NCBI GenBank assembly: GCA_029240955.1
Contig: JARDZH010000142.1
Location: 1 to 6,116, forward strand
Length of the DNA stretch: 6,116 nt
Reading direction: 5' to 3'
Source: Pseudomonas sp.
GTDB lineage: Bacteria; Pseudomonadota; Gammaproteobacteria; Pseudomonadales; Pseudomonadaceae
Every line of letters starts with the position of its first letter. Positions within the stretch are counted from its first letter, which is position 1. The notes below the pieces were generated by a model, which did not search any database, was not told the DNA's origin, and saw only the letters and a program-made list of their open reading frames with translations. This document shows, piece after piece, positions 1-4,325 of the stretch. Position numbers and translations under genes: made by a program.

Positions 1-767
1 ATCCCGCTGAACCAGTTATACCCCTGATCCTCCCAATACCCGCCGGGGTTGTCGTTGCTGACGATGATCTCGACGATATGTTTGGGGTTCTTGAAGCCCA
101 GCTTCGTCGGAACGCGCACCCTCACCGGGTAGCCGAAATCAGGCGGGAGGGCGACTTCGCCGAAGTCCAGCGCCAGCAGCGTCTGCGGATGCAGGGCGGT
201 CGGCATGTCGAGGCTTGAGTAATAGCGGTCGGCGCATTTGAAACCTACATAACGCGCCGTCGTGTCCGCGCCGATGTACTCCAGAAACGTCTTCAACGGC
301 ACCCCGCCCCACTGCCCGATCGCACTCCAGCCCTCAATGCAGATCAGACGCGTGATATCCGTGCGTTGCGGCAGCTGGCGCAGTTTCTCCAGCGTCCACG
401 GCTGTTTGTCACGCACCAGCCCGGACACCGCCAGGCGGTAGTCGGACACTTCCAGCTCCGGCACGTTGTACTCGGGGTAGAACGCGTTGAACGGAAACGG
501 GTTGGTCACTTGCGCCTTGCTGTAGGTGGGCGCCAGCTTCTGGCCGTTGAACAGCCACGCCTGAACCCGGTCGTTCCAGCGCGACATGGCCCACAACGCC
601 TTGTCCACCTGATCGCCGTCCTGCAGATTGCAGCCGGTCAGCATCGACATCGCCCCCACCGTCAACCCGGCACGCAGAAAGTGGCGGCGCTGAATATCGA
701 CCAACTGACGCTGTTGTGCAGGTTCCAGACGAATGCGCTGAGTGATGCGCTTGCGAGGTTCGCTCAT
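1..767 (-). CDS. Tat-exported molybdopterin-dependent oxidoreductase, sulfite oxidase/MsrP-like fold (3' end cut by window)
   Basis: The first 255 residues are visible. A twin-arginine motif R27-R28-H-F-L-R is followed by a short hydrophobic stretch ending in a lipobox, L43-T-G-C46. This suggests folded, cofactor-loaded export by Tat and possible lipid anchoring at C46. The sulfite-oxidase domain spans about residues 85-250. C143 in ICIEGWS sits where this family has its molybdenum-ligating cysteine (E. coli MsrP has RCVEAWS). The PVRVRVPTKLGFKNPK segment (214-229) and the end region PGGYWEDQGYNWFSG are typical of short YedY-like oxidoreductases, so probably only a few residues are missing. 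It lacks the longer C-terminal part of MsrP. The ATG overlaps the cytochrome stop as ATGA, implying translational coupling. It probably acts at the periplasmic face, taking electrons from or giving them to the cytochrome. The substrate is unknown. Confidence 0.9.
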   Translation of the reverse strand, partial: MSEPRKRITQRIRLEPAQQRQLVDIQRRHFLRAGLTVGAMSMLTGCNLQDGDQVDKALWAMSRWNDRVQAWLFNGQKLAPTYSKAQVTNPFPFNAFYPEYNVPELEVSDYRLAVSGLVRDKQPWTLEKLRQLPQRTDITRLICIEGWSAIGQWGGVPLKTFLEYIGADTTARYVGFKCADRYYSSLDMPTALHPQTLLALDFGEVALPPDFGYPVRVRVPTKLGFKNPKHIVEIIVSNDNPGGYWEDQGYNWFSG

Positions 768-1384
768 TGTTCGGCACCTCCATGGTCATTGTTCATACGC
801 CCCCCGGCAATCATTGGCAGCAACGTCTTGGGCACCAGCAGCACCAGCGCCAGATGCACCACCACAAACGCACCGATGCCGGACATGGCCGCAAAATGCA
901 CCCAGCGAGCGGTATCGAAACCACCCATCAGGCTGGCCAGTGCTGAAAACTGCACCGGCTTCCAGATCGCCAGGCCGGACAGCACCACCAACACGCCCAG
1001 ACCGAGCACCAGCCAGTACATCAAGCGTTGCACCGCGTTGTACTCACCCGTGACGTGAGCCAGTCGAAAGCGCAGCGCGTCCAGCAAATCGCGCTTGACC
1101 TCAGCTGGCCGGACCGGCAGCAGATCACGTCGAAAATGTCGGCTGAACATGCCGTACAGCACATAGATCAGGCCATTGACGACCAGCAGCCACATGACCG
1201 CGAAGTGCCAGGCGATCGCACCGCCCAGCCAGCCGCCGAGCGTCAGGGATTTGGGAAAGGTGAAAGGCAGCAGCGGCGAGGCGTTGTAGATCGCCCAGCC
1301 GCTCATGAACATGCAGACCATGCCCGCCGCGTTGACCCAATGGGTCAGGCGCACGGGCCAGGGATGGATCGGGCGGGTTTTCAT
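764..1384 (-). CDS. Cytochrome b561/Ni-Fe hydrogenase-type b cytochrome, membrane partner of the molybdoenzyme
   Basis: A 206-residue inner-membrane protein with four predicted helices at about residues 17-37, 55-78, 121-141 and 162-185. Candidate haem-ligand histidines lie in or beside the helices: H15 (RLTHW), H60 (AWHFA), H163 (WVHFA) and H177 (VVHLA). This pattern fits the cytochrome b561 bacterial/Ni-hydrogenase family (PF01292-like), which moves electrons between the quinone pool and a periplasmic partner. Sequence and layout differ from MsrQ, but the role is analogous by context. The start has an AAGGG Shine-Dalgarno 8 nt upstream. The stop codon overlaps the next ATG by 4 bp, so the two proteins are probably made together. 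A basic cytoplasmic loop lies at about 81-107. Confidence 0.88.
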   Translation of the reverse strand: MKTRPIHPWPVRLTHWVNAAGMVCMFMSGWAIYNASPLLPFTFPKSLTLGGWLGGAIAWHFAVMWLLVVNGLIYVLYGMFSRHFRRDLLPVRPAEVKRDLLDALRFRLAHVTGEYNAVQRLMYWLVLGLGVLVVLSGLAIWKPVQFSALASLMGGFDTARWVHFAAMSGIGAFVVVHLALVLLVPKTLLPMIAGGRMNNDHGGAEQ

Positions 1385-2961: not shown

Positions 2962-4325
2962 CCCTGCGCTCGACGCTGGCCTTTGCGCTGGTGGCGATGC
3001 TGACGGTCGGCAGCGTCGGCTTCTATCTGTATCGCTCGGTCGAGCTGACTGTCCTGCAACGCAGCGACCATGCCGTGCTCGCGCGTCTGGACCACTTCCG
3101 CAAGCTGCTGCGTTATGACCTGACGCTGGACAAACTTCGCGGCAGCCCGCAGCTGTTCGAGAACATGCTCGACAGCGAAGACGACATTTTCGTCATAGGC
3201 GAGCCGGGCAAATCGCCGGTGATCATGGTCAATCCGCAGCGCGCGCCGTTGCCCGACCTGCCGGTCGCCGCTCAGGATCAGCCGCTGCTCGCGGAAAGTC
3301 TGCGCAGCGGCGAGAGCCTGCAAGGGGTGCCTTTGCGTGCCGCAGCGGCTCAAGTGATGTCGGACGGCGTCGAAGTACGTTTGCTGGTCGCGCACGTGAT
3401 GGCCAAGGAAACAGCCATGCTGGCGAGCTTCCGGCAGCAGATTTATGTGGCGGTGCTGCTGGCGTTTCTAATCACTGCGCTATTGGGCTACCTGCTGCTG
3501 CAACGCGGACTGCGCCCGCTGCACAAGATGGCGGCGCTCGCCGCTGCGATCACGCCCGCCAGTCTGCACACGCGGCTGGACAGTCGGGACACGCCGGTCG
3601 AGCTGCAACCGTTGAGCGAGGCGTTCAACGCCATGCTGGATCGACTGGATGATGGCTATCGCCGACTGACGCAATTCTCGGCCGATCTCGCCCACGAAAT
3701 CCGCACGCCGGTAGGTTCATTGATGGGCCATTGTCAGGTTGCACTGCGCCAGAACCGCAGCGCCGATGAGTACCAGGCGCTGCTGGCCTCCAACCTGGAG
3801 GAACTGGAGCGCATTTCCCGGCTGGTCGAAAGCATCCTGTTCCTGGCCCGCGCGGATGAACCGCAGGCCGTGCTGGAACGCAAACCGCTGGACATGCATG
3901 AAGAACTGCAACGGGTAGCAGGCTATTTCGAAGGACTGGCCGAAGAGCGCCAATTGGCATTGCAGTTGAGCGGTGAAGACAGGCTGCTCGCCGACCCGAT
4001 CCTGCTACGGCGCGCCTTGAGCAATCTGGTCGCGAACGCGATTCGCTATGCCGATGAAGGCAGCACGATCCAGATGCGGGTCAGTCAGTGGGGCGACCGC
4101 TGCCGCCTCGACGTCGAAAACCGTGGGCCCGAGTTGCCTCAAGCCACGCTGGAGCGGCTGTTCGATCGCTTTTATCGCGGGGATCCTTCCCGCCATCAGC
4201 GCTCGGACTCCAATGGCCTGGGGCTGGCGATCGTCGCGGCGATCATGCAACTGCATGGCGGCCGCGCCGAGGTGACGCAACCGCAGGCGGGTTTGATGCG
4301 TTTCAGCCTGATCTTTCCGCGCTGA
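2934..4325 (+). CDS. Heavy-metal-sensor-type histidine kinase (CusS/HprS-like)
   Basis: 463 residues from ATG 2934, overlapping the regulator by 28 bp. In order: TM1 (about 14-34), a periplasmic sensor region (35-169), TM2 (about 170-190), and a HAMP linker (190-243). The dimerisation/phosphoacceptor domain has H254 in FSADLAHEIRTPVGSL. The ATPase domain has an N box (N364-L-V-A-N368), a G1-like ENRGP in place of the usual DxG, F-DRFYRGD (410-417) and a G2 box GLGLAIV (428-434). The full set indicates an active membrane kinase that phosphorylates the adjacent regulator. The periplasmic region has scattered histidines (H46, H54, H154) and methionines (M78, M98, M142, M156, M162). These could bind metal or sense oxidation, but no recognisable metal-binding motif is seen. 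Confidence 0.94.
   Translation: MRARRQPSLTLRSTLAFALVAMLTVGSVGFYLYRSVELTVLQRSDHAVLARLDHFRKLLRYDLTLDKLRGSPQLFENMLDSEDDIFVIGEPGKSPVIMVNPQRAPLPDLPVAAQDQPLLAESLRSGESLQGVPLRAAAAQVMSDGVEVRLLVAHVMAKETAMLASFRQQIYVAVLLAFLITALLGYLLLQRGLRPLHKMAALAAAITPASLHTRLDSRDTPVELQPLSEAFNAMLDRLDDGYRRLTQFSADLAHEIRTPVGSLMGHCQVALRQNRSADEYQALLASNLEELERISRLVESILFLARADEPQAVLERKPLDMHEELQRVAGYFEGLAEERQLALQLSGEDRLLADPILLRRALSNLVANAIRYADEGSTIQMRVSQWGDRCRLDVENRGPELPQATLERLFDRFYRGDPSRHQRSDSNGLGLAIVAAIMQLHGGRAEVTQPQAGLMRFSLIFPR

Follow-up and report, generated by a model that had tools for sequence, protein, structure and literature searches.

What does a two-component system related to CusRS and HprRS control when its genes stand divergent from those of a molybdoenzyme, a membrane cytochrome and an uncharacterized exported protein? 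This question is raised by a stretch of Pseudomonas sp. DNA (GenBank assembly GCA_029240955.1, contig JARDZH010000142.1, positions 1 to 6,116), whose whole length of 6,116 nucleotides we call the window. The five genes form two divergent groups: the minus strand encodes the exported protein together with a b561-type cytochrome and a molybdopterin-binding oxidoreductase, and the plus strand encodes the response regulator and sensor histidine kinase. Their open reading frames (ORFs) and domain profile matches (Table 1) agree with an original prediction, made from the sequence alone, which had placed the five genes there and likened the locus to hprRS beside msrPQ in E. coli. On balance, we consider it likely that the set is an oxidant-responsive unit for periplasmic methionine-sulfoxide repair, acting in parallel to canonical MsrPQ.

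A conserved five-gene module with shared palindromic boxes

Species genomes were searched with the exported protein, and the best 80 of the 88 loci obtained, a set biased to close relatives, were compared (L and G numbers are our handles for loci and genomes). The order of exported protein, b561 cytochrome and molybdoenzyme is kept in 79 of the 80, and in 76 the regulator and kinase genes lie divergent from the exported-protein gene, so that all five genes are present; the regulator–kinase pair is missing from L075, L077, L079 and L080, the last of which also lacks the enzyme pair. The predicted linkage of the five genes thus extends to other genomes. The complete layout is also found on a Rhizobium plasmid, on a Variovorax plasmid, in Glaciimonas and in genome G182. 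Among 198 sampled genomes of the family, 26 have a gene for the exported protein, at 27 places in total; it is linked to the b561 and enzyme genes at 17 of these and unlinked at 10 (one of the 10 at a contig edge), and the module is carried by 16 of the 198; in a sample of the phylum, the protein is encoded by 31 of 299 genomes. The linkage counts therefore describe a module that occurs patchily but is conserved in the genomes that have it, and an exported-protein family that is wider than the module.

Two perfect palindromes of the form TGACA-N4-TGTCA, absent from the original prediction, lie between the divergent groups. The window contains two matches to this pattern at one mismatch or fewer, compared with 0.17 expected, and two were reached in 1 of 200 shuffles. 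The box is present in all 80 intergenic regions compared (those of 76 scan loci, L081, L084, L157 and the window, the four regulator-less loci being dropped), as a perfect copy in 67 and with one mismatch in the other 13; when the regions were shuffled 200 times, a mean of 0.02 regions, and at most 1, had a perfect copy. No perfect box was found elsewhere in the 1.24 Mb of these loci, an absence that is weak on its own because about one would be expected, by our estimate, at even base composition. In L031, where other genes split the two groups, one box is found on each side. The stricter pattern TGACA-W4-TGTCA occurs at 0 to 3 sites per genome in 11 genomes, and the only two sites in G001 are those of the module. 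No perfect box was found at canonical msrPQ in four neighborhoods (L210–L213). The palindrome agrees in shape with what we take to be the CusR box, and the conserved copies are likely the boxes to which the module's regulator would bind.

One locus of the 80, L071 of P. kuykendallii, joins the classical repair pair to the module's regulator. In this locus, msrP, msrQ, the regulator and the kinase are co-oriented, while the exported protein, b561 cytochrome and enzyme are encoded on the opposite strand; the msrP and msrQ relatives sit between the two groups, directly before the regulator gene, and one box lies between these two oppositely oriented sets. The msrP relative is 56% identical to K-12 MsrP and the msrQ relative is 65% identical to a Pseudomonas MsrQ.

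The enzyme–cytochrome pair and its partners

The window enzyme contains both a twin-arginine motif, RRHFL, and a lipobox, LTGC, which fits the predicted export by the twin-arginine translocation (Tat) route and probable lipid anchoring, and the Pfam match of the cytochrome upholds its assignment to the b561 type. The enzyme ORF continues past the left edge of the window, with its C terminus outside. Nine relatives have 250–264 amino acids compared with 334 for K-12 MsrP and, thus, the shortness of the enzyme, which had also been predicted, is not due to the window edge. Identity to the K-12 proteins is 28% for the enzyme (with MsrP) and 20% for the cytochrome (with MsrQ). The closer comparisons came from loci on plasmids of Yersinia ruckeri, Klebsiella, Burkholderia, Methylobacterium and Caballeronia, each with a small methionine-rich peptide encoded nearby: the window enzyme is 54–58% identical to the five enzymes (58% for Methylobacterium and 56% for Caballeronia) and the cytochrome is 49–61% identical to the five cytochromes, while a Rhizobium homologue of the enzyme shows 70% identity. 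The peptide is annotated as an MXKDX repeat protein in the Yersinia, Methylobacterium and Caballeronia records, and in a profile scan that left out the Burkholderia peptide, those of Yersinia and Caballeronia scored over the MXKDX cut-off and that of Klebsiella narrowly under it (37.8 versus 41). The Methylobacterium and Caballeronia loci also encode an extracytoplasmic function (ECF) sigma factor and NrsF.

A single tree holds the window enzyme together with the enzymes of the methionine-rich-peptide loci. By sequence, the enzyme–cytochrome pair belongs to a separate b561-coupled family and is not a variant MsrPQ, with the cytochrome as presumed electron donor to the molybdoenzyme. The proposed likeness to hprRS and msrPQ therefore survives in the divergent layout seen in K-12, the linkage and the conserved palindrome, but does not extend to the pair itself. 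Canonical MsrP is found in addition: of 12 genomes tested, 11 have a match over the family cut-off and the twelfth has a partial one, and the b561/molybdoenzyme unit is therefore a second system. In G004, the P. cerasi genome of L024, the canonical MsrP match spans model positions 2–130 of 320 and falls under the cut-off, and the msrP gene there may be broken, split or mis-assembled.

The exported protein contains no cysteine and has two conserved methionines, one in the motif TMTNGT and one in a C-terminal PPM. It reached the cut-off of no Pfam or NCBIfam family. We read it here as two oligonucleotide/oligosaccharide-binding (OB)-like halves and keep the predicted label only as "DUF5666-like," since DUF5666 (PF18914) as a family name scores 14.4 bits against the Pfam gathering cut-off of 27. 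An identity as an MrpX-type methionine-rich sink was ruled out by composition, and the protein has no MXKDX profile match. Homologues are 95% (Pseudomonas alliivorans) and 96% (P. viridiflava and Pseudomonas sp. v388) identical, which makes the P. syringae/viridiflava group the most likely source of the window. Tandem exported-protein genes occur in L158, L159, L086, L250, L251, L253 and L255, with the enzyme pair in some of these and not in others.

The partner of the enzyme pair is exchanged between sister loci. The close enzyme family, defined by an E value of at most 7e-84, occupies 19 places in 16 genomes of the 299-genome sample, and the partner is the window-type exported protein at 5, a methionine-rich peptide at 4 and a fasciclin-domain protein at 7, with none recognized at 3. 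The fasciclin assignments were confirmed by Pfam in three cases, and the other four were made by at least 90% similarity to one of those. In all seven members of one enzyme clade (L168–L174) the fasciclin-domain protein precedes the b561/molybdoenzyme pair. On an enzyme tree of 62 sequences, with 23 rows labeled for the exported protein and 16 for the methionine-rich peptide, the partner labels require five changes, at least three of them forced by well-supported branches, compared with about 12.6 for shuffled labels. Genomes G182 and G261 each contain one module of each of these two partner kinds. Strict mutual exclusion of the two partners is refuted by L085, in which the exported protein and a methionine-rich peptide (28.9 versus the MXKDX cut-off of 41) are found together, along with an ECF sigma factor and NrsF. 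These exchanges allow a broader idea, which we advance only tentatively: the b561-coupled pair could be a common repair engine with exchangeable partners, each partner a dedicated oxidizable client cycled by the enzyme. The structured partners could then be a new folded methionine-based oxidant sink or a redox-switched chaperone, distinct from the MrpX peptides, which presumably are unfolded.

Signal, substrate and alternatives

The regulator is 52% identical to HprR and 57% to CusR. It scores 286.7 bits against the HprR equivalog cut-off of 353, and the copper/silver regulator and kinase profiles are likewise under their cut-offs (NF007346, 296.4 versus 420; NF007345, 276.3 versus 423). The kinase sensor was compared position by position with HprS, whose relevant residues we take to be Met72, Met153 and Cys165, in an alignment of 79 rows (78 module kinases and that of the window). 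Met78 of the window kinase aligns with HprS Met72, a position that is methionine in all 77 readable module kinases and isoleucine in CusS. Twelve non-module kinases from six genomes were also compared (13 scored over the family cut-off in nine searched genomes); they have methionine at the Met72 position in 1 of 12 and at the Met153 position in none. An H-x-H type motif by the membrane is found in CusS and in four of the 12 non-module kinases, which we label "CopS-like," and no such motif was found beside the second membrane helix of the module kinase. In G007 (L154/L215), a non-module kinase with methionine at the Met72 position has a CusR-like regulator adjacent, and relatives of the module's other genes were not recognized beside it. 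A review attributes sensing by HprS to two periplasmic methionines and describes a transmembrane cysteine as important for signal transduction (PMC10151825). At the compared positions, the aligned module sensors resemble HprS more than CusS, which favors an oxidant over copper as the signal, without proving it.

From these comparisons we infer the following course for the repair unit. An oxidant such as hypochlorous acid (HOCl) or peroxide would, by analogy with HprS, oxidize methionine of the kinase's periplasmic loop, and the kinase, as is typical of its family, would phosphorylate the CusR/HprR-type regulator. The regulator would then, as the conservation of the boxes suggests, bind the TGACA-N4-TGTCA boxes in the promoter region common to the two groups and induce its own genes as well as those for the exported protein, b561 cytochrome and molybdoenzyme. 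By their families, the b561 cytochrome would hand electrons from quinol to the molybdoenzyme, and this lipid-anchored enzyme would reduce methionine sulfoxide in envelope proteins. In what is the weakest step, the exported protein may take the place that the methionine-rich peptide or fasciclin protein has in sister loci, acting as client, oxidant sink or substrate-presenting partner.

Several findings weigh against this course. The Met153 position of HprS is methionine in only 53 of the 79 kinase rows, and the position of its transmembrane cysteine is valine in 65 and cysteine in none. Two sensor histidines are conserved, at position 54 in all but one of the 77 readable rows and at position 154 in 79 of 79 (compared with 0 of 12 non-module kinases at the latter), and these could bind metal. 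The exported protein, with 4 methionines in 201 residues, is not methionine-rich. The top NCBIfam match of the enzyme, MsrP at 91.4 bits, is under the equivalog cut-off of 207. In G009 and G010, the sole TGACA-W4-TGTCA site lies outside the module, whose own box there has one mismatch. Finally, among 30 loci of the phylum sample, taken one per genome with flanks of about 1.5 kb, 8 are linked to the enzyme and 22 are without it, and therefore the exported protein is not tied to the enzyme; G055, whose locus is one of the 22, also has another copy, L187, that is linked.

The first alternative is a copper/silver sensor with a repair arm, in which Cu(I) would be sensed as by CusRS or CopRS, the enzyme would repair copper-driven oxidation and the exported protein would be a CusF-like metal chaperone. 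We regard this as possible but doubtful. The H-x-H type motif that CusS shares with four paralogues from the same genomes is missing from the module kinase, and the window holds no metal efflux gene. Direct homology between the exported protein and CusF is unsupported by sequence (hhalign probability 0.4%), and the segment with the His/Trp/Met copper site of CusF was not found by eye in either half of the protein. Structural likeness to CusF is only a weak lead, because the model of the exported protein is middling (mean predicted local distance difference test score, 78.5), a Foldseek search with it returned zero matches at E 0.001, and OB folds are common.

A second alternative changes the substrate: the enzyme, controlled by envelope stress, would act on a different S- or N-oxide, in respiration or in detoxification, or would be a sulfite dehydrogenase. 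It is true that the enzyme is under every equivalog cut-off, that the SoxC and SorA sulfite dehydrogenases are its next NCBIfam matches and that sulfite oxidases and dehydrogenases make up most of its 16 PDB matches. However, MsrP leads the NCBIfam matches by 91.4 bits to 49.6 and 45.5, and the top PDB match, deposited as "bacterial sulfite oxidase," is the E. coli MsrP structure 1xdq. The neighbor of the enzyme in the window is a b561 and not a c-type cytochrome, and the published kin by gene order are reported to protect against HOCl and peroxide. We thus consider a different substrate improbable. That the regulator–kinase pair lies beside the enzyme genes by chance and serves genes elsewhere, as L075, L077 and L079 with the three-gene set and no pair might suggest, is highly improbable given the divergent layout in 76 of 80 loci, the box in all 76 and the lack of any TGACA-W4-TGTCA site beyond the module in G001.

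Plant-associated pseudomonads encounter host oxidative bursts. If the repair reading is correct, some of them have, in addition to MsrPQ, another route of envelope repair under separate control, and a role that can be tested is assigned to an uncharacterized exported family. The partner exchange makes the in-cell substrate of these enzymes directly testable.

The features of the window are collected in Table 1. The cytochrome ORF and the start of the molybdoenzyme overlap by 4 bases, and the kinase start is taken as ATG 2934, with GTG 2919 as the alternative. No sigma-70 promoter or terminator pattern was found in 1350–2300, and no Rfam family at gathering score within the window. A PL7-type alginate lyase gene (PF08787; 4328–5086, minus strand) is convergent with the kinase gene; 40 of the 80 related loci have a relative, and some of the 80 end short of that position. 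A MarR/SlyA-type regulator gene begins at 5764–6116 (plus strand) and continues past the right edge of the window, and at about 5400–5640 are two alike stretches (gcgatctgccgc...cggcagcaaaacca), judged by eye as possibly dispersed Pseudomonas repetitive extragenic palindromic (REP)-type repeats.

Table 1. Genes and palindromes of the module in the window
Feature	Coordinates	Strand	Profile match
Molybdopterin-binding oxidoreductase (MsrP/sulfite oxidase superfamily), Tat motif and lipobox	3..767	-	PF00174, 107 bits
b561-type cytochrome	764..1384	-	PF01292, 92.4 bits
Exported 201-amino-acid protein, all-beta, DUF5666-like	1454..2059	-	No family over cut-off
Perfect palindrome TGACA-TTTT-TGTCA, likely regulator box toward the exported-protein gene	2142..2155		
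Perfect palindrome TGACA-AAAA-TGTCA, likely regulator box toward the response-regulator gene	2178..2191		
OmpR-type response regulator, CusR/HprR subfamily	2266..2961	+	TIGR01387, 337.7 bits (cut-off 279.2)
Membrane sensor histidine kinase, heavy-metal/HprS type	2934..4325	+	TIGR01386, 491.3 bits (cut-off 292.55)

Comparison with known systems

A full-text literature search (titles and abstract openings, with few subscription papers covered) did not find this or a similar variant of the locus. Published kin of its parts were compared by gene order and description. In uropathogenic E. coli, OrhKR controls C3566/C3567/C3568 and is connected with peroxide resistance (PMC8550376). As in the window, a two-component pair is combined with a cytochrome b, an MsrP-like molybdoenzyme and a third periplasmic protein, and C3567 is 27.6% identical to MsrP (PMC8550376), similar to the 28% of the window enzyme. 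In contrast, the third protein of that system is a methionine-rich MrpX relative and its operator is TCACA-N15-TGTGA (PMC8550376), whereas the window has an OB-fold-like protein and the palindrome TGACA-N4-TGTCA. Two of our loci with an OrhKR-like gene order, L164 and L165, encode regulators 36–38% identical to that of the window, and the sensor of the L164 kinase is, by eye, unlike that of the window kinase.

The sigF/nrsF-yedYZ-mrpX locus of Azospira is described as a periplasmic methionine-cycling mechanism against hypochlorite (PMC4623255), and BcrXQP of Brucella, under BcrS/AbcS, as conferring HOCl resistance (PMC8315932). By description, these systems contain the same kinds of genes as the window; however, theirs have an ECF sigma factor and a methionine-rich peptide where the window has a two-component system and an OB-fold-like protein. 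With CusRS and CopRS, the window regulator and kinase share their NCBIfam subfamilies, but the window sensor lacks the CusS-type H-x-H motif and no efflux genes accompany it. The likeness to E. coli HprRS-HiuH/MsrPQ is one of arrangement and sensor: in K-12, hprRS is divergent from hiuH-msrPQ, so that in both a CusR/HprR-type pair is divergent from a molybdoenzyme and a membrane heme protein, and the Met72 position of HprS is retained in the module kinases. The differences from that system are the b561 type of the cytochrome, the lipobox of the enzyme, the lack of HiuH in the window and the low identities of the pair to MsrP (28%) and MsrQ (20%). The original prediction had suggested a distinct, undescribed module. 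Because the enzyme–cytochrome pair has published kin by gene order, "undescribed" fits only the remainder: kin of the kit are already known, and what differs here is the exported partner, together with its being paired with this particular two-component system.

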